From positions 1-42,158 of the IMG/VR virus record IMGVR_UViG_3300050021_000189: DNA of 42,158 bases. One strand, written 5' to 3'. This document shows positions 1 through 31,680 of this stretch, piece by piece; position 1 is the first letter of the stretch, and each line of letters opens with the position of its first letter. This DNA is from a virus. The translations under genes were made by a program, and so were the position numbers. The notes beneath the pieces were generated by a model. It saw only the letters and a list, made by a program, of their open reading frames with translations, was not told the DNA's origin and did not search any database.

Positions 1-3000
1 AGCCACCACCGCCTCGAGCCTCGTAGACCGTAGGTACCTTGATCTGCCCCAGGTTGAACTGGCCCTGCATCTGATCGGCCAAACCCTTCAGGGCCTGATC
101 CACCTGGTTGAGCTCATCCACCTGTTGGCGCGTCTTGTTCTTGACGCTGGTCAGGTAGAGGTGCTGGGCATTCAGGTAAGACAGGTAGGCACTCAGGGAG
201 GTCCGCTGCAGTTGGTAGTTGGTCTGCTCATCGGAGAACTGCTGGTCGAAGGCTGTCTTCTGGGCAGCACTGGTGGCATTGCGAAGAGCCACCATGTCAT
301 TGTTGATGACGTTCTGCCCGACCCCACGGTTCTGGTCCATGCTCAAGGTGCGAGCCGCCTCACGGACCTTCTCCTGGGCCATGAGCAACGGGTTGGTCAT
401 GTCGATGTTCAGCAGATCGATGTTGTTGGCATCGGCCAACTGCGCCTGTGCCAAGGCGTACTGCGCATCGTGCACGCCCTTCAGGGCGGTGTAATAGGCA
501 GTACTACCAACGGCATTGGCAAGCTGGTTCTGAGCGACCTGCAGGGCCACCGTCGCAGCACTGATGGGGTCACCGGGAATCACGCTGGCCTGGACCTGGG
601 CGTTAGCGCCAGCCTCTTGGGCCTGAGCCAGAGCGTACTGAGCGTCGTGCAGACCCTTCAAATTCTGCCAGTACACCGCGCCAACGGACGTTGACTCGGT
701 CATCTTGAATTCGGCAACCGCAAGGGCGGCAGAAGCCTGACTGATCGGATCGCCAGAGATGGCTTGCGCTGCCAGCATGGCCTCTTGGGTCGCATAGGCA
801 TCGGCGGCAGCCTTGCCGGGCTGGAACGCCGAGCCGGTAGGAGCAGAGATCGAAGCCGCGCCAGTCTCGGTGTTGAGAATCTGGAGCTGGATGGCCAGCG
901 ATGCCTGATCTGCTGCAAGCTTCTTTTCCGCGGCGATGACCTTGGGGTCCTTGGAGGCATCAACCGCCGCATTCGGCGCCGCCGCACCGAAGTCCGCCGC
1001 CGCACCCGCGGGCCCGGCAGTTGCCGTTGAAGGCTTTGACACCATCCCGCCGAGAATGGCCTGCTCGTTAGCCAAGTCAATATTCGACTGATCAATGGCA
1101 GACAGCTGCTTGAAGAGAATGGCCTTCTGGGTCTCAATGTTGGTCTGAACCGTCAAGAGCCATTCGGCATTAGTGTCAGGACCGCTCGGGTTAACTTGGA
1201 AGGACCGTAGTGTCGCATCACGCGCCCGATTAGCAGCCTCCTCCACATTAAAGGCATCTACCTGACTCTGAATACTCTTCTTCTTCTTGTCGATGATCGC
1301 TTGCTGGGCCGGGTCGAAGGAGGCTGGCGCCTGCATTCCCGGCCTCGACGGGTCGCCGGCCTTGATGATCGCCGCATTAGCCGCAGCGGTAGCCACGATG
1401 ACGGCTGCCTTGTCTGCAGCAATGTCCGTCTTCACTGAATTGTCGATGACCGTAAGCCTGGCTTGGCTCTCGGCAATGGTTCGATCCATGAACGCCTTGT
1501 CGCCCAGAGCGAACAACGCGACCACCGTGTTGGTGTCGCCACCTTGGGCAGCCTCGGTGATAGACGACGTGAGTAGCGCCTTGATCTGCGTGAGGTTCTG
1601 ACCTTGGTTACTGCTCAACGCCTTGATCGAATCGATCTTGTCGGTGGTCAGTTTCAGCAGCGCGGGGTAGTACGCCCCGCTGATCGAATCAGAGATGGCC
1701 TGAGCAGCCTCAAGATCAGCCGCCCTCTGCGCCGGGTCGCCCACCTTGGCGGCCATGGCCGTCAGCTCAGCAGCCACCGGCAACAATGACTTGAGATCAG
1801 ACAGCATTGTCAGAGGACTGAGTGCCTTCTTGGCCAAGGTGATCTCTCGAGCAACCTCGACGGCGACGCCCTTGTCACCCGATGCCGGGGTGAGCATGGC
1901 GCCGATATTAACGTCGCCCCCAATGGTGCCAGCCGGGGTATTGGCAATCAGATCCCGAAGCTTCTGTGAAGAGGCCGGGACGCTCATCTGCTGAGCGGCC
2001 ATCGTGGTAACGCCCGTGTTGATGTTCGCGTAGCCGGGCCCGAACAGCGCGCTACTCGGGGTAGCGGCGTTCATCTTATTCTGGGCAGCAGTGGCCGCCG
2101 TGATCCAGTCCGTCAGCTTCTTGTGCTCGTCGATCATGGACTGGATGGCCGCCACCTGCGCCTTGGCGGTGGATTGCCAGTCTTGTCCACTGACAACGTC
2201 CTTGATGATGCCGACACCACTCAAGAAGGTGCCCCAGAATCCCGTGTTGGCATTCAGAACCTTCGAGGCGCCAGCCATATCCAAGTTCGCTGCAGATTGA
2301 GCCAAGGGGATATTGCCGGTCTTCATGGCGTTGGTACCAGCCGTATTGGCGGAGGTACCTTCCGCCCGTCCCGCACCCTGCGTGTCAAGAGTTGTCTTGA
2401 CCGCCGAAGCGGCCATGACCGCAAGAATGATGGCCACCAAGGGTGCGATTGCCAAGGCGGCAGCACCCGCCGTCGCGGCGAGCCCGGTCATCGCGACACC
2501 TAGCCCACCGGCAGCCGTCTCGGCCTCGGTCATCGTTGTCGCTACGGCGGCTTCCTGCTGGCCAGCAATGAGCCCCTTCGTTGCCTCACCCTGCAGCACC
2601 GTGGTGGCAGTCACTTCTCTGCTGGCTAGCGCCAGCTTTTCCTTAGCGCTCGTCTCGGCAAGGGCATCCGCAACCGAGGCGTCCTTTTGTGCCTTCGTGC
2701 CATCTGTGGCGAGAATTAGAGACGCCGCCGCTTTGTCATTAGCCTCTGCGAACGCCAGTTGAGCCGCCGCTTCTGTCCTAAGCGCCGCAGTGGCGTCTAC
2801 GGAAGTCTTGGCAACGAGCGTTTCCGCCTCGCTGAGGGGGGCCGCCTTCACGGGAGTGGCAAGGCCACCCAGCCAACCTCCAGCACTGAACTGTCCCCTC
2901 GTGCCGCCGAGCGCCCCGGTCACCTTACCGGCTGCAGCCTCGAGCCCCGCCTTATCCAGCGAACCACCCAGCAACTTCACCGCGAGAGCCAGCGTGCCAA

Positions 3001-5359
3001 GGAAAAGGGCCCCATTGTCGACGACAGGACCAAGGGCATTGAACCCCTTGATCAAGTCATCCAGTCCCCGGATGAGGGGATCCACGCTCTTGAGTATTAG
3101 GCCGAGAATGGTACCCAGACCGGCCTGTCCGAGATCAGTGGCAAAGGCGAGCAGGTCTGTCCTGATGGACTCCATCTGGCCGCCGACGGTGGCCAACTTC
3201 AACTGAGCCTGCTGCTCCGCGGCCTGCGGGTTGGCCTTGGCCTTGTTGCCCTCCGCGATGATGTCTTGGAAGTTAACGATCGTTGCCAGAGCCGCCGCAC
3301 CAGCACGACCACCACCGAGCTTGGTAATGATGGTGTCCTGCTGGGTTGGGGTCAGGTCCTGGAACTTCAGGGACAGTTGACCAAGTTCCTTACTCGTGCT
3401 CTGGTTCGGGTTGATGCCGTACTCACCGAACAAGGACTGGAAGGTGTTAGAACCGGTACGGCCCAGCAAGCGCTTCAGGTCGCCAGCTGCCATCTCGCCA
3501 GTGGTGCCGGTCGCCTGGGAGACCTGCCCGACCAAGGCCAGACCTTGCTCCGGGGAGAAGCCCGCCTGCTTGAGCAGGTCGGCAATCTGGGCGGTGCCCT
3601 GAGTGATGGCACTACCACCGCCTTGGCCATAGTGCTGGGCGATGACAGTGGCTGCGCTGTAAAGATCCTGGGCTCCCGAAGCACCCAAGCCATAGTTCTG
3701 GGCGATGGCACCAAGTTCGTCCATGGCCTTGGTGATCATGGCCTCTTCTTGGCCCTGCTGGAAGCTCTTGCCCTCCAGCAAGTTAATGGTCGATCCGAGC
3801 TGGGCACCGATGTTGCCGGCGGCACCGGAGGTGTCTTGGAAGAAGCGGGTGTACTGGGTTGCCGCCGTGACTGCCACCGCTGGCGGGGTGGCCAAGCTCT
3901 GGCCAACAGTGGCATAGGTCTGAGCAGTCGCAGCCGCCTCCGTGTTATTCACACCTAGAGCGATAGACAGCTGGTTGACCGCCAAGGAGTAGTCCTCGGT
4001 GGCCTTCATGAGCGTGCCAATGCCCTGTTGCACAACAGAGAAGGCTTGGTACAGCAGCATGTACTTGGCGACCATCAGACCTTGGGCGAGCGGATCGCTA
4101 GTGCCATACCCGTGACGCCCGTGGGCGGTACCACTGCTGCCACTGCCGCCGCCGCCGCTAGCCTCCTCGTCGGTCAGATTGACGAGTCGCTCCTCGCCAG
4201 CAAGCAAGCGCTCAACGGCGACAATGCGCCGCTGCTCAAGAGTGGCAATATCCGCCTTAAGTTTTGCAGTCCGTTCGTCCGTAGCCCCCTGAGTGGTTTC
4301 TGCGTCAAGGACCTTATACCCCGCCGCCAAGTTCAGCTGAGATTGTTCGTTTTGTATCTGAAGGACCTGGACCTTTAGTGCCTGCGCCTTCGCCGCAGCA
4401 CTAATATTGGGATCAACAAGAGCCGCCTGCACTTCTTGCGGAGTCCCAGTCATCGCCTGACGATGAGCACTCTCCGCCTGCATCCGAGTGAGTTGCTCTT
4501 GGGTAGCCGCCTGAGTCCGAACTCCCTCGCTGAGCTTCCACTCTGCCTGCGACGTAGCCTTCAAAGCCGCTATTTGATCCTGCTCCGCCGTCAACTGCTC
4601 AGCCAAAAAAGTCTCAGAGGCAGGATTTGTCGAGTACAGTCCTGCCGCTGGCACAGGTGGCCATGCCCCAGTCGGCCCCGATGGTGGCGCCGCTGGCCCC
4701 ATGGCGATCGCCCGTTGGTGCGGTATCAGCCCCGCAACTTGCGCCTCCAAAGCGGCGGTGTATTGCGACTGGGCTGCGATCTGGCGATCAGCAGCCACGC
4801 CAAGACGACGTTGAACATCCGCCGGCGACTCCCCAACGGGCGTTGCCGTATAGAACGGACTCGCAGCGACAGCCCTCTGCGCAGCCGCCTGCTGCGCCGC
4901 CACCTGCTCTTCAGAAGTAATGGCAGCAGGCGCACGTGAACCGACAATCGCAGGGAACTCTTGCGCATAGGCCCCAGCCCGCTCGGCGGGCGGGATCGCC
5001 CATACCGGACGAGAAGCAAGAGCTTGGTACTCCAGCACCTTGGCAATGAGCGCGTCGTACCCAACGATCGTCGCCTCGACAAAGGCGAGCTGCATGGACG
5101 TTCCACTGCCACCCGCCAACTGCAACTGGGCGATCGATAACTGCTCTATCCGGCGTTGGAGATATTCAGCGGCAGCAGCGGCAGACCCCAGAGCGGCAGT
5201 GAGCCCTTCAACCCCCGCAGACATATTGACGCCAGTCATGGCGTTAATACGGTTCATCTGGGTCTGCAGTTGGTCTATGGCTGTGACGAGGCCAGGCCCA
5301 GCGTTGTCTACGAGATTGAGCTCAACGATCCCTTGGAAGACCGTTTCCCCGCCAGCCAT
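1..5359 (-). CDS. Tail tape measure protein (3' end outside window)
   Basis: The frame is open for 1786 codons and runs off the left edge without a stop. The protein is Ala/Gln-rich and mostly helical, as tape measure proteins are. A TP901-core-like stretch (AFSVVQQGIGTLMKATEDYS) lies near residues 438-465, and a long hydrophobic Ala/Ile/Val segment near residues 955-985 is the typical membrane-active part. The start ATG at 5359 follows GGGAGG with five bases between, one base after the chaperone extension stop, exactly the place a tape measure gene takes in siphophages. Tape measure length sets tail length, so more than 1786 residues implies a long tail. It acts inside the tail tube during assembly and probably in DNA delivery. 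The identity is inferred from composition and gene order; nothing enzymatic was seen in the visible part. Confidence 0.9.
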   Translation of the reverse strand, partial: MAGGETVFQGIVELNLVDNAGPGLVTAIDQLQTQMNRINAMTGVNMSAGVEGLTAALGSAAAAAEYLQRRIEQLSIAQLQLAGGSGTSMQLAFVEATIVGYDALIAKVLEYQALASRPVWAIPPAERAGAYAQEFPAIVGSRAPAAITSEEQVAAQQAAAQRAVAASPFYTATPVGESPADVQRRLGVAADRQIAAQSQYTAALEAQVAGLIPHQRAIAMGPAAPPSGPTGAWPPVPAAGLYSTNPASETFLAEQLTAEQDQIAALKATSQAEWKLSEGVRTQAATQEQLTRMQAESAHRQAMTGTPQEVQAALVDPNISAAAKAQALKVQVLQIQNEQSQLNLAAGYKVLDAETTQGATDERTAKLKADIATLEQRRIVAVERLLAGEERLVNLTDEEASGGGGSGSSGTAHGRHGYGTSDPLAQGLMVAKYMLLYQAFSVVQQGIGTLMKATEDYSLAVNQLSIALGVNNTEAAATAQTYATVGQSLATPPAVAVTAATQYTRFFQDTSGAAGNIGAQLGSTINLLEGKSFQQGQEEAMITKAMDELGAIAQNYGLGASGAQDLYSAATVIAQHYGQGGGSAITQGTAQIADLLKQAGFSPEQGLALVGQVSQATGTTGEMAAGDLKRLLGRTGSNTFQSLFGEYGINPNQSTSKELGQLSLKFQDLTPTQQDTIITKLGGGRAGAAALATIVNFQDIIAEGNKAKANPQAAEQQAQLKLATVGGQMESIRTDLLAFATDLGQAGLGTILGLILKSVDPLIRGLDDLIKGFNALGPVVDNGALFLGTLALAVKLLGGSLDKAGLEAAAGKVTGALGGTRGQFSAGGWLGGLATPVKAAPLSEAETLVAKTSVDATAALRTEAAAQLAFAEANDKAAASLILATDGTKAQKDASVADALAETSAKEKLALASREVTATTVLQGEATKGLIAGQQEAAVATTMTEAETAAGGLGVAMTGLAATAGAAALAIAPLVAIILAVMAASAVKTTLDTQGAGRAEGTSANTAGTNAMKTGNIPLAQSAANLDMAGASKVLNANTGFWGTFLSGVGIIKDVVSGQDWQSTAKAQVAAIQSMIDEHKKLTDWITAATAAQNKMNAATPSSALFGPGYANINTGVTTMAAQQMSVPASSQKLRDLIANTPAGTIGGDVNIGAMLTPASGDKGVAVEVAREITLAKKALSPLTMLSDLKSLLPVAAELTAMAAKVGDPAQRAADLEAAQAISDSISGAYYPALLKLTTDKIDSIKALSSNQGQNLTQIKALLTSSITEAAQGGDTNTVVALFALGDKAFMDRTIAESQARLTVIDNSVKTDIAADKAAVIVATAAANAAIIKAGDPSRPGMQAPASFDPAQQAIIDKKKKSIQSQVDAFNVEEAANRARDATLRSFQVNPSGPDTNAEWLLTVQTNIETQKAILFKQLSAIDQSNIDLANEQAILGGMVSKPSTATAGPAGAAADFGAAAPNAAVDASKDPKVIAAEKKLAADQASLAIQLQILNTETGAASISAPTGSAFQPGKAAADAYATQEAMLAAQAISGDPISQASAALAVAEFKMTESTSVGAVYWQNLKGLHDAQYALAQAQEAGANAQVQASVIPGDPISAATVALQVAQNQLANAVGSTAYYTALKGVHDAQYALAQAQLADANNIDLLNIDMTNPLLMAQEKVREAARTLSMDQNRGVGQNVINNDMVALRNATSAAQKTAFDQQFSDEQTNYQLQRTSLSAYLSYLNAQHLYLTSVKNKTRQQVDELNQVDQALKGLADQMQGQFNLGQIKVPTVYEARGGGG

Positions 5360-12040: not shown

Positions 12041-15000
12041 CTACAGTGTTGCCATGTCGATGCTCAATGAGTTGTCGGCAGCATTGTCCACGAGCAGAGG
12101 GTCGAAGGTCGGCGCATCAAGCACCCAAAGAACAGGAGCGCCTATCACCAACTGGGATTCCAGACTCCCGGTGGGCACCTCCATACTGAACGGCACACCT
12201 AGCGTCAATGGGTTGCCGATCGGGATGGCGACCTCCAGGGGGGCAACGGTCGCCACCTCCAGCACCATCAAGGGCGGGACGCCCACCGCCAGCAGCGAGT
12301 CCACACTGGCCGCCAGCAACTCCAACAGGGGCAACGGAGCCCCTACGACAACGGTGACGTCCTGACCAAGAGCGCCAATCACCGTGATAATGCCCGAGCC
12401 ACCCAAAGTGACAATGCTGGACACTGCCGCGATGGCCACCATTGCGAGCCCACCGGAGCCGCTGAGCGCAACAGTGCCGCCCAGTTCCAGTGCACCAGCA
12501 GCGCCCAGTGAGCCTGAACCGGTCAAATGTGCCGCGGTCCCGACTTCTGGTATACCCCCGGTCGCAAGCCCACCGGAGCCATTGAAGCTCACCGCACCGC
12601 TGGGCCAAGGCGCTCCAATGAAAGACAGAACGCCGGAACCATTCAGGACTGCCGGGCCGCGGTAACCCAAGACGCCAATGGTGACCAACACGCCAACACC
12701 ATCGAGGTTGACAATCCCCCCGATCCGCAGCACGCCCGCCAAGCCAAGAGTGCCAGAGCCGGTCAGTGGGACGATTGCGAACCTCGTCCCAACGGGACGG
12801 AGGTGACCCGCACCCATCAACTCGACAGAACTAGCGATGGCCGGACTCTGGCCCACACCCAGAGCACCAGAGCCACCAAGAGTGCACGCGCCGACATGGC
12901 CATAGACCCCGGTCAGCGTCAGAGCACCCTCACCACTCAGGGTGACACCGCCCGACAGTCGCGAGACACCCGCAGTTGCCAGAATGCCCGCGCCGGCCAG
13001 AACTGCAGAACCCGAGAATCCTGCAACGCGCGTTGTAGTCAAGGTTCCAACGCCACCGAGCGTGAGCTCGGTATGGATCTTCGGCAGGCCAGTCACAGAC
13101 AGGGAGCCCGCACCGCTCAGGGTGATCAACTCGTGACAGTGCACGACGCCCGCGACGCTCAGGCTGCCACCGCCAGCAAGAGTGGCTACGCCAACGAAAG
13201 CTGGCGTTCCGGTAATAACCAGGGCCCCGGCACCACCGAAGGTCGCCACCTCGGAAAGAACCGGCATTCCTACGGTGGCCAGCTGCCCAGATCCGGCCAG
13301 GTCCGCCGCCGTAAGAATGGCGGGCACACCAACCACGGTCAAGACACCCAAGCCCGACAGCCCCGCCGCACCGATCTGACCTACCGCACCCAGAGAGCCT
13401 GAACCATCCAGCGTGACCACGACAGTCAGGTCAGGTGCGGCAATCGCACCAAGCGCACCCTTACCCGACAGCGCTACCGTGCTGGAAATCGCCGGGAGGG
13501 TAACGACACCAAGAACGCCCTCGCTAGACAGGTCAACCTGACCTGGTAGCGCGGGAACCTCGGTGACAACGAGCGTTCCAGAACCGGCAAGGTCGACCCA
13601 GATGGCCCAGTCGGGCTCAACTGCCAGCGTCAGTGTTCCAGGACCCGACAGTGCGGCAGTTGTGACGATCCCAGGCACGCCTACGGCATCAAGGATGCCC
13701 GAACCAGCCAAAATGACCGCAGTTGTGACATCCGGCGCACCGACAGCATCCAGAGAACCGCTGCCGCTCAGCGACGACCCAGCCACAAGTGCCGGTACGC
13801 CAGACACGGCGAGGATACCGGCACTAGACAGGGAAGCAACACCCTCGAAGCCGATAATCTGCGCGACGCCGGAAACTTCCAGCAGGCCCGATCCGGACAG
13901 GTCGACAGTACCGGAAACTGCAACAACAGCGACAAGTTCGAGAACACCAGACCCGCTCAATGACGCGACACTGGGAATCGAAACGATCCCTGTGGTCACC
14001 AACAATCCCTGACCGGTCAACGCCAGGGCACTAACAATGGCCGGGACGCCCGTGCCGCCGAGCAATCCCGATCCAGTGAGGTCCGCGGCCCCGAAACCAC
14101 TCGCAACGCCAGTAGTGATGAGAGTTCCATTGCCAGAGAGCGTGGCGATACCAGAGATCGCAGGGACGCTAGTAGCAGCGAGAGCCCCCGAGCTAGCCAA
14201 GCTAACAACGCCCGTTATGGCGGGAGCCTGCACAGCTGCAAGCAGGCCCGCACCGCCCAGTGCAGCGATCCCGGTGATGGCTGGCACGCCCCCGGCCACC
14301 AGGGCACCACTACCACTCAATCCTTCAGGGATCGGTATAGCCGGTGCCCCAACACCAATCAGAGTGCCGGACCCAGACAAAGCCACCGGGGTCGAGAAGC
14401 CATTGACCACGCCGGTCATAGCGAGAATGCCGGATCCAGTTAATGCCACCACTGCCAAGATCGCTGGAACCCCAGCAGCCGCCAATGAGCCAGAGCCAGT
14501 CAGCGCTACCGAGACTGAAACGGCAGGCACGCCTGCAAGCACAAGCGCGCCCGAACCGGACAGTCCTACCGCAACAGGGATGGACGGGGCGCCGACGAGG
14601 ACCAGCGTTCCAGAACCAGACAAAGCTATCGAGATTGGAATGGCCGGGACACCTATTACCCCGAGAGTTCCCGAGCCAGCCAGAGTCACGGAGCCGATGA
14701 ATCCAACACCAGTAAGGATGCCAACGCCCGTGAGGGTGGCCGTGCCGGTGAGAGCTGGGACGCACGCCAACGTGAGAGTGCCCGTGCCCGTAAGGGCAGA
14801 CGAACCGGAAATCCAAGGCGCTCCGATGACACCAAGCGATCCAGTGCCAGAGAGGGTAACCGCGCCAATAAATCCAACCGCCGTCAGAGCACCGGACCCA
14901 CTCAGTCCAGCCGTACTAGAGAGAGAGGGAGCGCCTACGACGCCCAGCGAGCCTGAGCCACCGAGAGTTGCTACTCCAATGAATCCGACCGCACTGAAGA

Positions 15001-18000
15001 CTCCAGACCCGCTCAGCGCAGCCGTACCAATAATGGACGGCGCAGCGGTCGCACCAAGAGTGCCAGATCCACTCAACGCCTGAGTTGTACTCGACCACGG
15101 TGCTCCTGTCAGGACCAGCAAACCGGAGCCGCTGAGCGTAGTAATGCTGGAGGTGGTCAGGGACGACGTGAATGTCAGAGTGCCGGAACCACTCAATACC
15201 GCTGTGGACGGAAGTGCAGGCAGACCCGTCTCGCTCAGAGTTCCCGCACCCGAGAGGACAGCGGTACCTGTGATTGAGGGCACGCCCGACGAGCCGAGCG
15301 AGCCGGTACCGCTCAGAACAGCGGACCCGATGAACCCTACTGCGATGAACGTCCCCGAGCCGGACAGAGCCACAGTCGAGGTGATCGAGGGCAGCCCGAT
15401 CAGGCTCAGTGTTCCGCTACCGCTGAGAGCAGCCGTACCTGGTATGGCCGGAACCGGAGTCAGGCCCATCGTGCCGACACCGGACAGAATGACGGTGCCT
15501 GTGACAGCCGGGACGCCCGTCGAGCTCAGTGAGCCTCCACCGCTTAGCGCTGCTACCGCCATAATTACAGGGACGACGGTCAGACCGAGCGCACCTGAGC
15601 CGGTCAGCGGGACTGGCGTCGAGAAGCCATTGACCACGCCCAAGGCAGCGAGCAGACCACTGCCGCTCAGAGACTCGAGCCCAGGGAGAGCCGGAGCGCC
15701 TGTCGAGGTCAGAGATCCGCTGCCCGTCAGCACGACGGAAGTCGAGAACCCGTTGACTACTCCAGTCACAGTCAGCAAACCGCTACCGCTGAGCCCTTCG
15801 ACGCCAGGCACGGCAAGAGTGGCGACAGCAGTCAGCGTACCAGATCCGGACAGGGCCACGGGGATTGAGAGTCGTGGCAGGCCAGAGAGAGACAGTAATC
15901 CACTGCCGGTCAGTGCGGCCATGCCCGGAACAGCAAGAGTGACGCTGGACCCGAGCGTGCCCGTTCCGCTTAGCGCCGCAGTTCCGATCACCGTCAGCAC
16001 ACCAGACAAGCCCAGCGTTCCACCACCACTGAGCGCTGCAGAGCCGATAAACCCTACTCCTGTAAGGGTTCCCGTCCCTGTCAGTGCAACCATGCCCGTG
16101 ATCGAGGGAGCGCCAAGGACGCCCAGCGTACCTACGCCACTCAGGCTCTCGAGTCCAGGTAACGCCGGGGCACCCACGGCAAGGAGGGTGCCGGAACCGC
16201 TCAACGTGGCCGAGCTAAATGGGTGAGGAGAACCGCTCACCGTCAGGAGGCTTGAGCCTGTCAGTACCGCTGCACCGATGAACCCAACGCCAGTCAGAAC
16301 ACCGGTCCCGGCCAGGCTAGCGACACCAGTGATAGCCGGGACGCCAGATGTGACCAGGGTACCTGTGCCGCTCAGAGCCCGCAAAATAGGAAGTGACGGA
16401 GTACCGACCGCCGTGAGTGTGCCCGACCCCGTGAGAGTGGTCGTCCCGCCTTTGGGCCAGGGCAGCCCGACAGCGGCAAGAGTGCCAGACCCGGACAAAG
16501 TGGAACTACCGGTAATCGCAGGACTACCTGCAGTGCTTAACGCTCCAGACCCCGAGAGCGCGCTTCCACTGACGGTACTGGTGGCATTGAAGTGGGCGAG
16601 CACCTGTGCGCTGGTCAACGCGTAGGGATAGAACGCCACCTCGTCAATCGAGCCGTCGAATCCCAGGTTGACGGGGTCCACTTGGCGGCCAATGGAGTAG
16701 CCGTAGCCTGATGAACCTACTATCGGAGCAGCCGTAGAGCCGTAGATATAGGGAGCGTTCGACCGCTCAACCCCGTCCACATACAGGTGCATGTGCGTCG
16801 CGGGATCAATCGACACCCCGGCAACACCATTCAGAACCCCGACAACATGATGCCATGCGCCATCATTAACCAAGGTGGCACCAGAGCCGAGGTGCGCCCA
16901 AATTGAGTCACCATTGACCGTCAGGATCAATGAGCCGTTCGTCGGACTTCCCAGCCAACTGGAGTAACCCACGCCGAGAAGAAGCCCCGTATGGTGTCCA
17001 CTCAGCCAGTCTCGGTCGCCCACAATCCAGCGACCGTAAGCGGTGGTCTTGATCCAAGCTTCGAGGCTGAACTTAGAATGGTTTAGTACGACACTCGGTG
17101 CTAAAACCTTGTCGAGAGTTGCATCGGCAAACGTCATTGAGTAGCTAGACCCGACATGAGCAGGACTCTGATGAGTAAGCGTCGAGCCACTGATCTTTCC
17201 ACTGCCAGCAGTAACACTGCTATCAGCAGCTCCTGTGTTCCCTAGCGTGATCTCAGCAATAGAGGTGTAGAAGGCATCACCGTTGTTCGCGGTGATAAAG
17301 ATCCGATAGTAGAGGAACACTACAACATTGGCGAACGCAAAACTCTGAATCTGTCCCGGCGTAGGCCAGGCGATCCCTGTCCGAGAATCCAGAGTGGTCC
17401 ATGTGCTGCCATTATTGGAGCCCTGAAAGACCCAGTTCATAGGGTTACGGTTCGGAAGATCATCACGACGCGTAATCGAATACGAGGTCAATGCCGTAGC
17501 CGAGACCAGTTGCGCTCTCCACCACTGTGGCAGGGCAGAACCGTTAGTCGTCCAGAACGTCAGAGGACTACCATCCACCGCCATACTGGGTATTTCCGAG
17601 TACCACCATTCCGAGGCGGTCGTCGCGGCAATAGCAGCCTGCCCGTAGTAATCATCCAGCTCAAAATAACCGAGAGGTGCATCAGCCAGAACAACACTCG
17701 CATAGGAAGTTCCGCTACGGATCGCAGGCACGCCTACCGCACTGAGCGTGCCTCCACCTGACAAGGTGGCCGCGCTGGAAATAGCCAGGAACCCAGAGAC
17801 ATGGAAGTTATCGACGTAGCAGAGTTGTCCGGCCGTGGCGGCGGAAGCCGCAAGCTGGACACTCATGTAATGCATGGTGTTCTTGGATGCGACGAAGTCC
17901 GGCAGAGTCAACGTCTGCCAGGCGTCATAGATGGTCTGCTGCACATTTGAAGAGAAGCCGAAGCACTCAAGGAAGGACACCTGTGGATTGCCGCTCGGCA

Positions 18001-18970
18001 CATAAACATCGACCTGGAACGAGTACGTCTGACCGATAACCAGGCCATCTACGCCGACCACCGCTCCGCAGTAACCAGAAACAGTGGGCCAGGTAATTAG
18101 CAGTGACTTCGTGCCATCGCTGGCCCGCACTGAGCTATTGGCGATAGCACAGGCCGCTGCTGCACCATAGAAGTTATTGCCCCAAGCCCCGGTCGTGCCG
18201 CCCTCGAATGAGTTGTTCTCAGCGCCGATGTCCGGGAGAGCGACAAGGGTTCCGCTGCCGCTGAGGGTACAGGTACCGGTGTGGTCCTCGGACGGGATCA
18301 GAGCCGCGACAACCAGGCCCTGATAGTTAGCGCCGGCTGTCGGGTTGAATGTCTGAACACCGGTAGCATTGACAATCTTGTACTGGAGCAGGCTAGAGCC
18401 AAAAGTGGATGTGTTTTGAGAACCAGCGCTCCATGACCCGGCCAGGGCGTCAGCGTCCGCGGTGAAACCCATACCGCCCTGTAGACCTGCTCCACCGATC
18501 ACCAGATCGCCAGAGACCAAGGCAGTACCTGACGTGGAACAGGTGCCGTTACCATTGGTACTGCTACGTGTCCCTACTGTGCCTCGCAGAGTGGCTGAGA
18601 CACCTGAATACTCGTTGAGAATTATCACCGAGCCAAGAGTGAACGCCCCAGGAGTCCCAGACCACGTAACCGTGACGCTGTACCCAACACTCCATGGGAC
18701 GGTGGTCTTGATCGCCCACAGTTCACCCACGCAGCCAGCACCGGGAGTGCTGGTCGAACAGGTATGTCCTGCAAGTTTCACCCACGACGCTGTCTCACCA
18801 GTGGGCTTGCTGATACTGCTGACAGTTGGTGTCGTTGTTGATAGGTTGCTACATGCGTTCCAGCAGACGAGGGTATTCAATGCCGAAACTGCCGAAGTCG
18901 CTATGCTAACCGAGACAGTGGCAGTTCCGGATTGGGTCTTGCCGACGTTACGGACAAACGCGACCGTCAT
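12041..18970 (-). CDS. Giant repeat protein with carbohydrate-binding-like domains (virion fibre candidate)
   Basis: A 2309-residue uninterrupted protein with a strong RBS (AAGGGAGG before ATG 18970). In order: a beta-rich domain with many Cys/Thr (1-230); one copy of a LSGSGTL repeat (233-249); a CBM4/9-like jelly roll (251-395, beginning ENNSFEGGTTGAW); a second lone repeat (398-418); a discoidin/F5-8C-like domain (426-578; PSMAVDGSPLTFWTT, then WVFQGSNNGSTWTTL); a LamG/concanavalin-like domain (580-795; FSLEAWIKT, AWHHVVGVLNG, GSIDEVAFY); about 71 tandem 20-residue repeats (800-2205); and a hydrophobic Leu/Val/Pro-rich tail. The lectin-type folds suggest binding to host-surface or environmental glycans; the array suggests an extended beta-solenoid or fibre. 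It lies between the capsid and connector genes rather than among tail fibres. No signal peptide or enzyme motif was seen. Confidence 0.85.
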   Translation of the reverse strand: MTVAFVRNVGKTQSGTATVSVSIATSAVSALNTLVCWNACSNLSTTTPTVSSISKPTGETASWVKLAGHTCSTSTPGAGCVGELWAIKTTVPWSVGYSVTVTWSGTPGAFTLGSVIILNEYSGVSATLRGTVGTRSSTNGNGTCSTSGTALVSGDLVIGGAGLQGGMGFTADADALAGSWSAGSQNTSTFGSSLLQYKIVNATGVQTFNPTAGANYQGLVVAALIPSEDHTGTCTLSGSGTLVALPDIGAENNSFEGGTTGAWGNNFYGAAAACAIANSSVRASDGTKSLLITWPTVSGYCGAVVGVDGLVIGQTYSFQVDVYVPSGNPQVSFLECFGFSSNVQQTIYDAWQTLTLPDFVASKNTMHYMSVQLAASAATAGQLCYVDNFHVSGFLAISSAATLSGGGTLSAVGVPAIRSGTSYASVVLADAPLGYFELDDYYGQAAIAATTASEWWYSEIPSMAVDGSPLTFWTTNGSALPQWWRAQLVSATALTSYSITRRDDLPNRNPMNWVFQGSNNGSTWTTLDSRTGIAWPTPGQIQSFAFANVVVFLYYRIFITANNGDAFYTSIAEITLGNTGAADSSVTAGSGKISGSTLTHQSPAHVGSSYSMTFADATLDKVLAPSVVLNHSKFSLEAWIKTTAYGRWIVGDRDWLSGHHTGLLLGVGYSSWLGSPTNGSLILTVNGDSIWAHLGSGATLVNDGAWHHVVGVLNGVAGVSIDPATHMHLYVDGVERSNAPYIYGSTAAPIVGSSGYGYSIGRQVDPVNLGFDGSIDEVAFYPYALTSAQVLAHFNATSTVSGSALSGSGALSTAGSPAITGSSTLSGSGTLAAVGLPWPKGGTTTLTGSGTLTAVGTPSLPILRALSGTGTLVTSGVPAITGVASLAGTGVLTGVGFIGAAVLTGSSLLTVSGSPHPFSSATLSGSGTLLAVGAPALPGLESLSGVGTLGVLGAPSITGMVALTGTGTLTGVGFIGSAALSGGGTLGLSGVLTVIGTAALSGTGTLGSSVTLAVPGMAALTGSGLLSLSGLPRLSIPVALSGSGTLTAVATLAVPGVEGLSGSGLLTVTGVVNGFSTSVVLTGSGSLTSTGAPALPGLESLSGSGLLAALGVVNGFSTPVPLTGSGALGLTVVPVIMAVAALSGGGSLSSTGVPAVTGTVILSGVGTMGLTPVPAIPGTAALSGSGTLSLIGLPSITSTVALSGSGTFIAVGFIGSAVLSGTGSLGSSGVPSITGTAVLSGAGTLSETGLPALPSTAVLSGSGTLTFTSSLTTSSITTLSGSGLLVLTGAPWSSTTQALSGSGTLGATAAPSIIGTAALSGSGVFSAVGFIGVATLGGSGSLGVVGAPSLSSTAGLSGSGALTAVGFIGAVTLSGTGSLGVIGAPWISGSSALTGTGTLTLACVPALTGTATLTGVGILTGVGFIGSVTLAGSGTLGVIGVPAIPISIALSGSGTLVLVGAPSIPVAVGLSGSGALVLAGVPAVSVSVALTGSGSLAAAGVPAILAVVALTGSGILAMTGVVNGFSTPVALSGSGTLIGVGAPAIPIPEGLSGSGALVAGGVPAITGIAALGGAGLLAAVQAPAITGVVSLASSGALAATSVPAISGIATLSGNGTLITTGVASGFGAADLTGSGLLGGTGVPAIVSALALTGQGLLVTTGIVSIPSVASLSGSGVLELVAVVAVSGTVDLSGSGLLEVSGVAQIIGFEGVASLSSAGILAVSGVPALVAGSSLSGSGSLDAVGAPDVTTAVILAGSGILDAVGVPGIVTTAALSGPGTLTLAVEPDWAIWVDLAGSGTLVVTEVPALPGQVDLSSEGVLGVVTLPAISSTVALSGKGALGAIAAPDLTVVVTLDGSGSLGAVGQIGAAGLSGLGVLTVVGVPAILTAADLAGSGQLATVGMPVLSEVATFGGAGALVITGTPAFVGVATLAGGGSLSVAGVVHCHELITLSGAGSLSVTGLPKIHTELTLGGVGTLTTTRVAGFSGSAVLAGAGILATAGVSRLSGGVTLSGEGALTLTGVYGHVGACTLGGSGALGVGQSPAIASSVELMGAGHLRPVGTRFAIVPLTGSGTLGLAGVLRIGGIVNLDGVGVLVTIGVLGYRGPAVLNGSGVLSFIGAPWPSGAVSFNGSGGLATGGIPEVGTAAHLTGSGSLGAAGALELGGTVALSGSGGLAMVAIAAVSSIVTLGGSGIITVIGALGQDVTVVVGAPLPLLELLAASVDSLLAVGVPPLMVLEVATVAPLEVAIPIGNPLTLGVPFSMEVPTGSLESQLVIGAPVLWVLDAPTFDPLLVDNAADNSLSIDMATL
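12360..16575 (-). repeat. About 71 tandem ~60-bp (20-residue) coding repeats
   Basis: Counted by eye in the translation: about 71 consecutive units of form xxxLSGSGTLxxxGxPxIxx, with 17-residue variants ending GFIG and a variant ending VVNGFS. LSGSG/LTGSG/LAGSG is the fixed core and the spacer residues vary. DNA copies have diverged, so the array is not a recent slippage product, yet near-identical neighbouring variants suggest segmental duplication. Confidence 0.85.
13025..13034. promoter_or_regulatory. AACGCGCGTT palindrome, site 2 (within CDS)
   Basis: An exact copy of the ten-base palindrome, inside the repeat-protein gene, where it encodes Thr-Arg-Val in place of the usual repeat residues. 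Confidence 0.4.
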
Positions 18971-27594: not shown

Positions 27595-30500
27595 TCAGCT
27601 CACGAACTGCTCCAACACCGGCCCGCGGCGACGCTTGGGGGCGAGAGCCGCCTCGATCGACTCCAGCTCCTTGCCCAGGATCATCACCTTGGCGCTGTCT
27701 AAGGTGTGATAAGAGCCAGCGCCGAACTTGATCTGAGATCCCGTCTTGGAATCCCCGTCATTGCGGCTGTAGACCACAACCTGGCCCTGGAATTCAGTCA
27801 ACAATTCCTTGTCGTAGGGCAGTTCAAGCATCTGGGCATCGACATACTCGCGCAGTTTGTCCGTGGCGAACATGATGATGTTCTTCTCGATCATCGCGTC
27901 CTCAGGAACCTCCCTGCCCACCAGTGGCCGGTCGTCATACTCCACGGCTCGCTTCTCACTGAAGCCGTAGCCCTTCACTCGGTCACGGATCCCCTTATGA
28001 GCCGGATCCTTGTCCATGTGCTGCCACACCGGCAGACCGGCACCCGACTTGTCCATCGACAGGGCCCGCAACCGATCCCCATAGAACCCGAACACCTTGG
28101 CGATAACCTTCTCCTGGTCCACCGCCGAGACCCGCATGAGGTGAATCCTGGCGAGCAAACGCAGCAGGTCGACATCCTCGCCATTGCGCTTCGCTTTAGT
28201 CACCCCGAAGATCAACAGCTCGCTCGGGTCTCTGGTGAAGCCGATATCCATCCCGGCCCAGTAGGACGAGTAGGACTTGTTCAGGTGACTTAGAGGCAGG
28301 TTGATGAAGGACTCGATCGGACGCCGCTCGAGCGACTCACCTTCGACCTTGATGAGCGTGTAGACGTTCTCGTTGTAGTCGGTGGCCCAGGTGGACTCGT
28401 TGATCCGCACACAGTTGTGGTTCAACAAAGGTGCATCTCCAGCGAAATATGAAGGGTGCCCAGAAACCGTCAAGTCATAAACTGTGACCTGATCTTCTCC
28501 ACCACTGAGTCGATCGAAGACCTCACTTCCGCGTTCGTGAACCTCAACACAGTCCACCCTTGCAAACATAGCCATTCGTCGCGAATACGATCCCGCGCCA
28601 TGGCCCTCTCCGTGAAGTGTTCCGGCCCGTCCACCTCGACGGCAATCTTCATCGACTGATGGGCCAGATCCAGCTGAAACCGAATCAGATCCTCCCCAAG
28701 AGCCCCCAAGGGGCTGATCCACAACTCGGGTTGCCACTCGTCGCCCAACGCCCGCCAGAGCACGAACTGATCCATGGGCAACCCGCCCCGCTCGCTCCTG
28801 CGCATATGGTGAGACTGCTTGAGAGGTCTGAGCTTTACCTTGCTCGCATACCAGCACACCTTCGAGCAAAAGCGATGCGTCCGACGCAATGGTTGAAACA
28901 TCACCGAGCAATGAGCGCACGACGCCATCGGCAATCGCGCGTCCGTCTGACGTGCGTTCGCGCACGCCTTGGAGCAGAACTTCACCTTCTTGTCCGCACG
29001 ATAGAACTCGGTCCCGCAACGCACACAGAACTTCGACACCTTGGTCTGCAATGGCCTGAAGGTCAGACCCGCCCACTTCGAGGAGCAGGTTCGCGAGCAA
29101 AACTTCCGGTCCAACTTCGCCATAAAGGTCGTTCCGCACTGGCGGCACACCTTCGGCCCAGTCGCAGGTTGACGGCTGGCGTTCCAGCACTCTTGATTGC
29201 AATAGTGATAGCTGTTCTTCCCCTCCAAAAGCTTCCCGCAATAACGGCATTCCATCTCGCGATGTGGGTTGGCTTCCCGCTTCTGTCGAGCCGCACATTC
29301 CCGCGAGCATGTCGTCCGTTGCGGAACTAGGATCTCCTTGCTGCACATGGGGCACGCCCCATAGGTCCTGTGACCAGCCGTTCGGCATTCCGTACTGCAG
29401 TACTTCGCCACCCAGCGAGACTGAAACAGAGTCCCGCAGGTCTGACACACCTGCGAGGGACGCTCCACTCGCCTCGCCATCCCCGCGCATTTTCGTGAAC
29501 AGTATTTGAGCTGACTTGGTAAGGTCAGCGTCTTGCCACAGACCTCGCAAGCCTTCAAGGGTGAAGATCCGATCCCCTGGCTGGAGTCGATCGGCATGGC
29601 GCCAACCGTGGTCGGTAAAGAAGGGGTGCTCCGGGGTGCAGTATTCGTCATGGCCATCAAGTCCGATCACGAGGATATGGTCACGCCTGCTCGGGATCAC
29701 GTCAGTGACGGTTCCAGTGCCGATCGCGTTGAGGACACTATCACCAACTCGTATGTTCTCAACAGACGTAGCGCGAACCTGACCATCTACTTCTTGATAG
29801 ATAGACGTGCCGGGAGTTCGACAGGCCATGAGTCGAGCCAGCACGAACACCCGGTTACTGACATCCCCGGCCTCGCCGTAGATATTGCGTTTGTAGTCCG
29901 GGTTGTCTCGCGACCCTCCATAGATCGCGATCTTTTGCCTACGCTCCTCCGGGGACCATGTGGGCCGGTACATGGCGGGGTAATGATGGACGAAGAACGG
30001 CAGATCAGCGTCCCCAGAGGTGACCCGGTGGTACATATCCCGGACCCCATTACTCACGCCGTGAGCACGCCACTGGGCCCCTGGGATGCCGTGCTTCATC
30101 GTCTCGATGAGTTCGACCCAGCCTGCCTGAACGTAATCCTGACCCTCGTCGAGCTCAAGAATCAAAGGGTGCTGGTTGTGGCTAATGAGCCCGTCAGCCA
30201 GATAGGAGTGATCATCCTTGACGTGCAAGTCGTAAACCATCTGCGGCTCAGCAGGCATGATCGAGCGAACCCGCATCCACTGCTGATGCTTTTCCATAAC
30301 AGCTTGATTCTTGGAGCCACTGAGCGTGACCCGGTGGGCCCGCATCGGCTTGACCTTCAGGGCCCGACCACAGATATGAGTGACATCCGGATCGACCCAG
30401 CTATATGACCCGGCCCAGCCCAGTGACTGACCCAGTAGACGAAGTCCGATCGCCAGTTCCTTGGAGGCGCTACTGAACGTCCAGCGCTGCTTCTGCTCAT

Positions 30501-31680
30501 CCCACCAGCCATCACCACTGAGATAGCCCTCAAGAAAGGCCCTACGGTGCTCCTCGGAAGCCCCAAGCAACCACGTCGGGATGCACTTGCCATCAGAGTG
30601 CTGGCCGAACTCATCCCGCCATATCCTGGCAAGATCAGTACTACAGAAGCCCGTCTGGATGGAGCCATTGTCGCGAACGACCACAGCTGCTGGATGCAAA
30701 CCTGCGTTTGCAACGCGCGTTGTTAGGTCGACGACCTCGTGAGCCTCGGCGACAATCATCACGCGGCGCGGCACGCGCCTCTCTGCGCCTGACTTCATCA
30801 TCTGGAACATGAGGTGGCCATCAGCGACATACCGCCCGGCCAGCCATAGCAACTCCGGCGTAGCCCACACGGGCGTGATCTCCGGCTCGAACTGGGTAGG
30901 CGAGCCAAAGTAGAACCGGGTATCCGGCTCCTCGGCAGGAATGAGGAACTGCGACTGAGCAAGATCCCGCTTCTGCTTGGGCCCATTCAGAGCCCTACGG
31001 GCAAGCATCCGGTGATTGGCGCTCATCACGAGACCACGATGACCACCGCCATTGACGGTAACGACCTCTGGATTGAAGTAGGAGACGACGTGCTCCACCG
31101 GACGCCAGCGACCCATATGAGTGAACACCTCGTCACCGACATGGATATCCTCGACCTTCACCTGTCCACGACGGGTCAGGATGAGGGCTCCGGCGCCAAT
31201 GCTGCCTTTCACTCCACGTCCATCGTGGTTCGGCAGACGCCCCATAATCCTTGAGCTGTTCATGAAAGTGGCCTGAAACTGGGGCTGGTGCTTAATCCCA
31301 CCGCCTTTCTGGGGTGGCAGCATTTCCCGCAGTAGGCGGTACTCATTGAACCGTTCCTCCACCTTGTCCACGATCGGACTGAGGTGGTTGAGTTCGGGCG
31401 CAGTGATCAGCATCTCCTGGCCAGGGAAGTTGAACGGGAAGGCACACGCCCGCATGATGATGCCCACGGACTTACCCAGAGCTCGCGCCATCTTGTCGGC
31501 CTGATAGGTGTTCTCATTCCAGTAAAGCGAGTACTGGAAGTCCCAGAGTCGATACCTACGGTGGGCCCGACCTGGCGTGTCATCAGTCCAGATCATCTCC
31601 GCCAGATCGATACCCGAGGGATCATCCAGCAGGGCCGCCAGATACATCTCCTCGTCGTCCAACGCCATAATGGCTGGCAT
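27595..31680 (-). CDS. Terminase large subunit interrupted by two inteins
   Basis: A 1361-codon frame. Removing the two inteins leaves about 548 residues, the normal TerL length. The ATPase has a Walker-A-like ARALGKS (residues 65-71) and Walker B LILELDEGQD (506-515). The nuclease domain follows the second intein: MDIGFTRDP and MDKSGAGLP carry RuvC-type Asp residues, with LDSAKV near the end. TerL packages DNA through the portal and cuts it at headful or cos ends. Intein 1 (residues 160-502) sits just before Walker B; intein 2 (620-1089) sits before the nuclease. Both sites are in conserved stretches, as usual for inteins. ATG 31680 shares a base with the upstream TGA. Assignment is firm; splicing competence is inferred. 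Confidence 0.92.
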   Translation of the reverse strand: MPAIMALDDEEMYLAALLDDPSGIDLAEMIWTDDTPGRAHRRYRLWDFQYSLYWNENTYQADKMARALGKSVGIIMRACAFPFNFPGQEMLITAPELNHLSPIVDKVEERFNEYRLLREMLPPQKGGGIKHQPQFQATFMNSSRIMGRLPNHDGRGVKGSIGAGALILTRRGQVKVEDIHVGDEVFTHMGRWRPVEHVVSYFNPEVVTVNGGGHRGLVMSANHRMLARRALNGPKQKRDLAQSQFLIPAEEPDTRFYFGSPTQFEPEITPVWATPELLWLAGRYVADGHLMFQMMKSGAERRVPRRVMIVAEAHEVVDLTTRVANAGLHPAAVVVRDNGSIQTGFCSTDLARIWRDEFGQHSDGKCIPTWLLGASEEHRRAFLEGYLSGDGWWDEQKQRWTFSSASKELAIGLRLLGQSLGWAGSYSWVDPDVTHICGRALKVKPMRAHRVTLSGSKNQAVMEKHQQWMRVRSIMPAEPQMVYDLHVKDDHSYLADGLISHNQHPLILELDEGQDYVQAGWVELIETMKHGIPGAQWRAHGVSNGVRDMYHRVTSGDADLPFFVHHYPAMYRPTWSPEERRQKIAIYGGSRDNPDYKRNIYGEAGDVSNRVFVLARLMACRTPGTSIYQEVDGQVRATSVENIRVGDSVLNAIGTGTVTDVIPSRRDHILVIGLDGHDEYCTPEHPFFTDHGWRHADRLQPGDRIFTLEGLRGLWQDADLTKSAQILFTKMRGDGEASGASLAGVSDLRDSVSVSLGGEVLQYGMPNGWSQDLWGVPHVQQGDPSSATDDMLAGMCGSTEAGSQPTSRDGMPLLREAFGGEEQLSLLQSRVLERQPSTCDWAEGVPPVRNDLYGEVGPEVLLANLLLEVGGSDLQAIADQGVEVLCALRDRVLSCGQEGEVLLQGVRERTSDGRAIADGVVRSLLGDVSTIASDASLLLEGVLVCEQGKAQTSQAVSPYAQERAGRVAHGSVRALAGVGRRVATRVVDQPLGGSWGGSDSVSAGSGPSVDEDCRRGGRAGTLHGEGHGAGSYSRRMAMFARVDCVEVHERGSEVFDRLSGGEDQVTVYDLTVSGHPSYFAGDAPLLNHNCVRINESTWATDYNENVYTLIKVEGESLERRPIESFINLPLSHLNKSYSSYWAGMDIGFTRDPSELLIFGVTKAKRNGEDVDLLRLLARIHLMRVSAVDQEKVIAKVFGFYGDRLRALSMDKSGAGLPVWQHMDKDPAHKGIRDRVKGYGFSEKRAVEYDDRPLVGREVPEDAMIEKNIIMFATDKLREYVDAQMLELPYDKELLTEFQGQVVVYSRNDGDSKTGSQIKFGAGSYHTLDSAKVMILGKELESIEAALAPKRRRGPVLEQFVS
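28414..29823 (-). mobile_element. TerL intein 2 (class 1, canonical splice residues)
   Basis: A 470-residue insert. It begins Cys620 (CRTPGTSIY, block A), has block B YCTPEHPFFTD (Thr682, His685), block F VTVYDLTVSGHPSYFAG and ends LLNHN, with Cys1090 at +1: all canonical. The extein rejoins as LMA-CVRINES. Between blocks B and F, residues about 711-1055 are a Gly/Ser/Leu/Val-rich stretch with no known domain and no LAGLIDADG motif. Exactly this stretch is the shadow of the nuclease gene at 28470-29657 in another frame. Confidence 0.88.
28470..29657 (-). CDS. Homing endonuclease nested in intein 2: seven Zn modules plus Vsr/DUF559-type nuclease
   Basis: A 395-codon frame on the same strand as TerL but one base out of phase (+1), wholly inside intein 2. 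Seven modules of form CxxC-x9to12-CxxxC (numbering from TTG 29660: residues 38-58, 72-92, 103-122, 138-158, 172-192, 212-233, 248-269) read like a DNA-binding treble-clef array. The C terminus (323-375) matches the DUF559/Vsr-like PD-(D/E)xK nuclease: GED, IAVEVDGPEHF, RDRIRDEWLCLQGWTVLRF. EDxHD/Vsr-type homing enzymes are known beside split inteins, so this most likely cuts intein-free terL. Start ATG 29657 or 29651 with a weak RBS, overlapping intein block B; its stop overlaps block F. The recognised domains leave little doubt that this frame is coding. Confidence 0.88.
   Translation of the reverse strand: MAMTNTAPRSTPSLPTTVGAMPIDSSQGIGSSPLKACEVCGKTLTLPSQLKYCSRKCAGMARRVERPSQVCQTCGTLFQSRWVAKYCSTECRTAGHRTYGACPMCSKEILVPQRTTCSRECAARQKREANPHREMECRYCGKLLEGKNSYHYCNQECWNASRQPATGPKVCRQCGTTFMAKLDRKFCSRTCSSKWAGLTFRPLQTKVSKFCVRCGTEFYRADKKVKFCSKACANARQTDARLPMASCAHCSVMFQPLRRTHRFCSKVCWYASKVKLRPLKQSHHMRRSERGGLPMDQFVLWRALGDEWQPELWISPLGALGEDLIRFQLDLAHQSMKIAVEVDGPEHFTERAMARDRIRDEWLCLQGWTVLRFTNAEVRSSIDSVVEKIRSQFMT
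30175..31203 (-). mobile_element. TerL intein 1 with in-frame LAGLIDADG endonuclease; Gln at +1
   Basis: A 343-residue insert from Ser160 to Asn502. Block A aligns as SIGAGALILT against CxxGDTxVxT; a block-B-like SANHRML (Ser220, His223) follows; block F/G reads MVYDLHVKDDHSYLADG then LISHN. Two LAGLIDADG helices are visible, LAGRYVADGH (280-289) and FLEGYLSGDG (382-391), so the homing enzyme is in frame. The next residue is Gln503 where Cys, Ser or Thr is expected, and the rejoined extein would read GVKG-QHPLILELDEG. Known splicing chemistry needs a +1 nucleophile, so this is either an atypical intein, a cleavage-only element, or a splice point placed elsewhere. Confidence 0.85.
30712..30721. 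promoter_or_regulatory. AACGCGCGTT palindrome, site 4 (within intein 1)
   Basis: An exact ten-base palindrome inside intein 1, encoding Thr-Arg-Val. Its presence in the mobile intein may be chance or may make the intein subject to the same binding protein. Confidence 0.35.

Follow-up and report, generated by a model that had tools for sequence, protein, structure and literature searches.

A LAGLIDADG intein family at one site of phage terminase large subunits that may do without a side-chain nucleophile at position +1

The window analysed here is a stretch of 42,158 nucleotides (positions 1 to 42,158 of IMG/VR virus record IMGVR_UViG_3300050021_000189), a 42-kb virus whose gene for the terminase large subunit (TerL) is located on the minus strand. 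The gene is one open frame of 1361 aa (27595..31680, minus strand, as are all features of the window given below) and contains two inteins. The protein without inteins is 39% identical over 99% to the terminase of Caudovirales GX15bay, and an empty-site relative used as query (L023; L numbers denote the loci collected) matched the PHROG terminase large subunit at E 3e-4. The N-extein of 159 aa (31204..31680) ends with GRGVKG and carries, in translation, RALGKS (31468..31485), which we take to be a Walker A-like motif; its R, G and K are invariant in a four-row extein alignment. Beyond the first intein and one Gln follow His-Pro at +2 and +3 (30166..30171), both invariant in the same alignment, intein-less TerL included, and the Walker B strand with the motif LILELDE (30145..30165, from translation). 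A preliminary description of this DNA had placed the intein nine residues before Walker B, and the Walker B Asp is indeed residue +9 of the C-extein. A model of the intein-free TerL of L023, built from a 25-row alignment, is of moderate confidence (pLDDT 72.5, pTM 0.50) and gave 27 matches at E up to 0.001, all of them large terminases or their domains with T4 gp17 first. In this model residues 159 and 160, which flank the insertion site, are part of a loop (149-163) joining two strands; directly past this loop, at residue 164, the Walker B strand starts.

Intein 1 (30175..31203, TerL residues 160-502) is 343 aa long, combines a HINT with a LAGLIDADG endonuclease domain and spans from Ser1 (SIGAGALILT...) to ...GLISHN. 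Along its sequence are found the N-terminal nucleophile Ser1 (A:1, 31201..31203), block B with S-A-N-H (31012..31023; SxxH with His B:10, Ser and His being present in 7/7 rows examined), the LAGLIDADG motifs LAGRYVADG (30817..30843) and LEGYLSGDG (30508..30534, PF14528), block F with VYDLHVKDDHSYLADG (30190..30237; Asp F:4 and His332) and His342-Asn343 with the C-terminal cyclising Asn (30175..30180). Pfam matches were obtained for Hint_2 (E 2e-8), Intein_splicing (E 1.9e-8, slightly below the curated cut-off) and LAGLIDADG_3 (E 4.5e-6, both motifs intact). An AlphaFold model of intein 1 with seven same-site sequences reached pLDDT 82.7 and pTM 0.84, and its top PDB match in Foldseek was the TliVMA intein, which carries a homing endonuclease too (TM 0.70 by query). 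The HINT fold is thus not a chance assignment, since the Pfam matches stand beside a confident model with TliVMA as best match; a search of solved structures by sequence gave 0 hits. A substitute nucleophile was looked for and not found: all three Cys of intein 1 lie within the endonuclease region, and the HINT part has no conserved Cys. Position G:5 is Ser in intein 1 of the window and Gln in L092.

The residue at +1 (30172..30174) is Gln, encoded by CAG at 30174-30172 and followed by His-Pro, as had been described before, so that neither Cys, Ser nor Thr is present. Alignment with intein-less TerL, proposed earlier as a check of the junction, fixes it at VKG|x with Gln at +1. The intein-free TerL of GX15bay reads NGTGVKG-I-HPIWLELDEAQDFP at this site, with GTGVKGIHPIWLELDEAQDFP as its sequence across the junction, and an uninterrupted [x]KG-x-H, a pattern that demanded His at +2, is present in 51/56 TerL loci scanned; the remaining five (L058 and L068-L071, two of which duplicate L006 and L001) carry inteins. 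A shift of the junction that would bring Cys, Ser or Thr to +1 was rejected, because the empty-site TerLs fix the site and the N-junction residue of intein 1 aligns with the canonical Cys1 of L001, L069 and L071 and likewise with Cys1 of L092. A sequencing error in the +1 codon was rejected as well, because HN|Q recurs in L006 and L092. After removal of identical contexts, 45 empty sites showed M (13), Q (11), L (7), I (5), T (4), V (3), S (1) and P (1) at +1, with Cys, Ser or Thr in only 5/45. The empty-site TerLs carry the same mixture as the inteins; the +1 residue thus belongs to TerL itself, where it is usually not a nucleophile.

Seven further contiguous inteins at the VKG|xHP site were collected from viral contigs, for which the intein, the TerL exteins and DNA patterns spanning the junction served as queries. 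The TerL intein of L006 (S1/HN|Q) is 73% identical to intein 1; the others are those of L092 (C1/HN|Q), L001 (C1/HN|M), L069 (C1/HN|I), L071 (C1/HN|S), L070 (S1/KN|T) and L080 (HN|T, its N-terminus being lost at the contig end). With the window included, five of the eight have no Cys, Ser or Thr at +1, in a small sample of eight contiguous and two split alleles that, beyond GX15bay and the named phages, comes entirely from uncultured virus contigs. The absence of a +1 nucleophile noticed in the preliminary description is therefore real and common to relatives. A junction pattern leaving +1 unspecified returned six TerL inteins among eight hits, with Q, Q, M, I, S and T at this position; another junction scan gave TerL inteins in 5/17 stretches, the rest looking like chance, and two scans of genome contigs found no relatives. 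In the phylogenetic tree the same-site inteins form one clade (93/96), and a non-nucleophilic +1 occurs in all three of its subclades. Related inteins at other sites lack Cys, Ser or Thr at +1 in 0/35 cases (29 from the census and six from named phages). Of the 40 distinct C-terminal segments in the collected loci, ten stand at the VKG|xHP site, one ends without Asn and the 29 from other sites all show Cys or Ser at +1, as do the six inteins of named phages, each with Cys. Because related inteins elsewhere all have Cys or Ser, the unusual +1 is tied to the TerL site and is no trait of the intein family at large. Sites with an intein carry Cys, Ser or Thr in 3/8 cases vs 5/45 for empty ones, a weak, non-significant excess (Fisher p 0.09) that is indicative only, as the rows are related.

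In a comparison of the window with L006, dN/dS is 0.131 in intein 1, 0.129 in the N-extein and 0.112 in the extein stretch that reaches to the intein 2 site, at a dS of ~1.5 in all three, which is rough as it is so high and comes from a single pair; for TerL after the intein 2 site dN/dS is 0.241 and dS 0.90. Within intein 1, blocks A-B show 0.119 and the middle part 0.159, and the lowest ratio is that of blocks F-G with a pN/pS of 0.07, synonymous sites being saturated. Intein 1 has thus been carried along with TerL for a long time, with its splicing blocks, and most of all the C-terminal ones, under constraint. As intein and exteins are under like purifying selection, it is neither decaying nor a dead copy, and this long and equal constraint argues for an excision that works.

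At the same site two alleles are split. L093 (IMGVR_UViG_3300009506_000927) retains the N-extein and a Ser1 intein at the VKG|xHP site in an ORF (2223..3296) that ends with ...EDFSYIGDGVVHRGSAFLPNGDKAD-stop, after which TerL resumes in another frame as MHPKKLEMDEAQDYP... from 3299. L133 (IMGVR_UViG_3300005557_000021) begins inside the intein, so that Ser1 is seen in L093 only, and reads ...EDFSYVGDGIVHKGSRFLPSDDEVL-stop / MHPKKLEMDEAADYP... (1..1023, C-half from 1026). In both, the C-half starts with the +1 Met, whose ATG overlaps the stop of the preceding N-half-intein ORF by one A (TGATG) and follows a Shine-Dalgarno-like sequence, AAGG at 7 nt in L093 and GAGGTG at 5 nt in L133. A frameshift joining the two ORFs of L093 was considered, but stop codons in the frame of the C-half lie just upstream of Met, so that a restart fits better. 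In L133 this frame is open for ~33 codons upstream of Met, so that for this allele the argument for a restart is drawn from the overlap TGATG, from the Shine-Dalgarno-like sequence and from the likeness to L093. Both alleles have lost the C-terminal His-Asn (now RG/KG) and the block F His, the residues for Asn cyclisation, and both retain the SxxH of block B and the block F Asp; one Asp of LAGLIDADG motif 1 is lost in L093 (LAGRYLAGG) and kept in L133. They group with L092 in the tree (98/95). L133 came from a scan for the arrangement seen in L093 (two TerL inteins among six hits), and a further scan for split alleles found nothing beyond these two. Their intein parts are 56% identical with a dN/dS of 0.33, equal to that of the C-halves, so the split arrangement has lasted. 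Read in this way, L093 and L133 would be giving a two-chain TerL through translational restart at the +1 Met, and they suggest that TerL tolerates a C-half whose first residue is precisely +1, whether or not the halves are joined. The cut through TerL that the earlier description expected from a lack of splicing need not be lethal, as the same junction separates the two pieces of TerL encoded here.

By its anatomy intein 1 is a class 1-type LAGLIDADG intein, with Ser1, His B:10 (in SxxH for TxxH) and H342-N343, that fails the +1 requirement of this class, the branch point Cys, Ser or Thr being replaced by Gln. Class 2 (Ala1, Ser at G:6, direct attack by +1 Cys) was rejected, as intein 1 has Ser1, His at G:6 and Gln+1, and so was class 3 (Trp B:12, Cys F:4, Thr G:5), for which intein 1 has Met, Asp and Ser. 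To our knowledge, inteins of classes 1, 2 and 3 all transfer the N-extein to Cys, Ser or Thr at +1. Intein 1 shares with type A bacterial intein-like (BIL) domains, which as far as we know lack a homing endonuclease domain, a HINT domain ending in His-Asn with no nucleophile at +1. Intein 1 does carry a LAGLIDADG domain, and its location is one TerL codon before Walker B in eight contiguous and two split alleles. If the mechanism proposed below is right, it would work like a type A BIL domain without being one by location or endonuclease.

The reading that we tentatively favour, and to which we give a little less than an even chance, is that intein 1 is excised through the Ser1 acyl shift and Asn cyclisation without a branched ester, and that the freed +1 α-amine religates TerL. 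Both its N-side and its C-side catalytic residues are retained despite Gln+1, which argues that both ends are processed; a branched ester of the class 1-3 kind cannot form, because +1 has no side-chain nucleophile; and with classes 2 and 3, which would both still need +1, excluded on residues, aminolysis or hydrolysis of the ester remain. We infer the following chemical steps, with ligation as the main outcome. Intein 1 belongs to a small LAGLIDADG intein family at one TerL site (VKG|xHP), and this family would have dispensed with the +1 side-chain nucleophile. Ser1 (Cys1 in some relatives) would form the N-terminal (thio)ester, assisted by the block B His and the block F Asp, and Asn343, aided by His342 and the block F His, would cyclise and free the C-extein, the branched intermediate on residue +1 being absent. 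In the folded TerL-intein complex the new +1 α-amino group would then attack the Ser1 ester and religate TerL, so that any +1 side chain could serve, as proposed for type A BIL domains, and some two-chain TerL might be formed alongside and tolerated. We rank ligation first on two counts, the essential role of TerL as a motor protein and the expectation that its halves would stay together around the intein. Several points count against it. The oxyester of Ser1 is expected to be less readily aminolysed than a Cys1 thioester, the two-chain TerL of the split alleles probably works and would remove the need for ligation, and Ser or Thr at +1 in three of the eight alleles suggests that a nucleophile may still help. 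The behaviour of type A BIL domains would also speak against ligation as the main outcome, as they mostly cleave and a Magnetospirillum BIL domain spliced only after Tyr+1 was changed to Cys (PMC4031507).

An unusual route or cleavage only were the right options to name at the outset, and for regulated activity, the third one named, we found no evidence. Cleavage only is a serious candidate, although we rather doubt it: hydrolysis of the Ser1 ester and Asn cyclisation would leave TerL 1-159 with Walker A and a piece beginning Gln-His-Pro with Walker B, which would work non-covalently, so that splicing would be lost and excision kept. Exactly such a product is encoded by L093 and L133, with the C-half as a separate ORF, with selection on their intein parts equal to that on the C-halves and with His-Asn and the block F His gone. 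In the TerL model the site falls in a loop that precedes the Walker B strand, which would also suit two chains, and split phage enzymes such as Aeh1 NrdA and gp43A/B of phage 25 are described as functional (PMC2988022, accessible part). On the other hand, Ser or Thr at +1 persists in three alleles, Ser1 is visible in just one of the two split alleles (L133 being truncated before residue 1), and L093, with the Asp of its LAGLIDADG motif 1 lost, may be decaying. The free amine of Met+1 in L093 and L133 could moreover attack the Ser1 ester in trans. A more far-reaching idea, which we consider unlikely, is a fourth mechanistic class of intein, in an essential phage gene, in which the +1 side chain is idle, any residue is accepted and the α-amine of the C-extein ligates. 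L093 and L133 would go one step beyond, with restart at Met+1 in place of Asn cyclisation and the Ser1 ester of the N-half joined in trans to the free-amine C-half.

That another group replaces the +1 side chain, either the +2 His as acyl carrier or a residue of the intein, with a new branched intermediate, seems improbable to us. The +2 His is present in 8/8 contiguous same-site inteins and in all 51 empty-site loci matched, but the empty-site pattern demanded His, and TerL itself explains the conservation because the His is invariant in the four-row extein alignment also in GX15bay, which has no intein. No conserved Cys of the HINT part is available for this role, and S-Y of block F is also present in inteins having Cys+1. 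Still less probable is that the intein is not removed, or is cut at one end only, and that TerL works with it attached. L093 and L133 have lost the chemistry of the C-side, and their N-half might retain the domain, but constraint in the window and L006 is strongest on the C-side residues, and the insert sits directly before the Walker B strand. Least probable of all, the intein could be a copy disabled not long ago in a phage lineage that is dying out, or an artefact of sequencing. The record does come from an uncultured virus, and inactive intein pseudogenes exist (PMC3196547, accessible part), but HN|Q recurs in L006 and L092, L006 already being a contradiction, dN/dS is as low as 0.13 over a dS of ~1.5, both LAGLIDADG motifs are intact and TerL is otherwise open.

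The need for Cys, Ser or Thr at +1 limits where inteins can live and their use in protein engineering. With homologous inteins at one site of an essential gene, under purifying selection and with Q, M, I, S or T at +1, efficient ligation without a nucleophile becomes directly testable. Should intein 1 ligate, it could be a lead for ligation with a free choice of residue at the start of the C-extein; should it do no more than cleave, a terminase motor would be working in two chains, and L093 and L133 would show an evolutionary path from an intein to a gene in pieces.

The closest named relatives are class 1 LAGLIDADG inteins of phage DNA methylases, which share the block order (query cover/identity 62%/29.5% for Propionibacterium phage B22 and 65%/25.5% for P1 Dmt) but differ in that 6/6 inspected, five in methylases and one in a ribonucleotide reductase, have Cys+1. 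The relative in P1 Dmt is also found in 129 plasmid records, 112 of them from Escherichia; P1-like Dmt records, e.g. OP279344.1 61924-63030, bear the annotation methyltransferase or hypothetical protein, and none of the rows seen mentions an intein. For type A BIL domains, which mostly cleave, a ligation has been proposed in which the freed amine attacks the N-terminal thioester (PMC4031507, as far as accessible). The bacterial proteins in which they reside are described as non-conserved, and the regions they occupy as hypervariable (PMC7765530, accessible part), whereas intein 1 is located in a conserved motor protein, occupies the same codon in several phages and has Ser1 and LAGLIDADG. According to the accessible part of PMC7664689, +1 is usually Cys, Ser or Thr and BIL domains are mainly cleaving. 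The mycobacteriophage inteins TerL1-a to -e (Kelley et al. 2016, PMC5050341) also lie in the ATPase domain of TerL, one set of them at Walker B; by description they have conserved catalytic residues except for the penultimate His, and the accessible text does not mention a +1 other than Cys, Ser or Thr. That of PMC9957025 holds nothing on the +1 residue, and among titles and abstract openings, with subscription papers mostly uncovered, we found no report of conserved-site inteins without Cys, Ser or Thr at +1, which is a weak negative. The split alleles resemble Aeh1 NrdA and gp43A/B of Aeromonas phage 25, where an essential phage enzyme became two chains after invasion by a homing element, as described in the accessible part of PMC2988022, but there the split is made by a free-standing endonuclease or an intercistronic sequence and in L093 and L133 by an intein minus its C-terminal junction. 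Type B BIL domains and the HINT domain of Hedgehog (Hog) are alike in keeping the N-side chemistry and losing the C-terminal Asn motif (PMC4031507, accessible part), although their position and host proteins are unlike those of L093 and L133, whose cleavage is putative.

Intein 2 of the window (28414..29823, 470 aa) has canonical ends, Cys1...HN|Cys+1, and its site is empty in L006. Inside it, in another frame of the same strand, lies an ORF of 396 aa (28470..29660) that shows numerous zinc-finger-like CxxC repeats together with an endonuclease domain of type DUF559 (E 2e-13). This hidden frame is probably the coding one, because its third-position GC is 0.73 vs 0.53 in the frame of intein 2, and it is comparable to an out-of-frame HNH insert in a phage methylase (PMC11855218, accessible part). 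The TerL genes of L067, L069, L071 and L093 carry two or three inteins each at differing sites (P-loop, the VKG|xHP site, after Walker B and the nuclease domain), among them small inteins ending GN|S or GN|T. TerL inteins at the Walker A site, GK|A...THN|S, start with Ala (L036, L064, L065, L093), and those read (L064, L093) have Cys at the apparent block F:4 and Thr at G:5, so that they look like class 3 (WCT) inteins. Elsewhere in the window an ORF of 2309 aa (12041..18970, minus strand) consists largely of repeated short LSGSGTL-like units.
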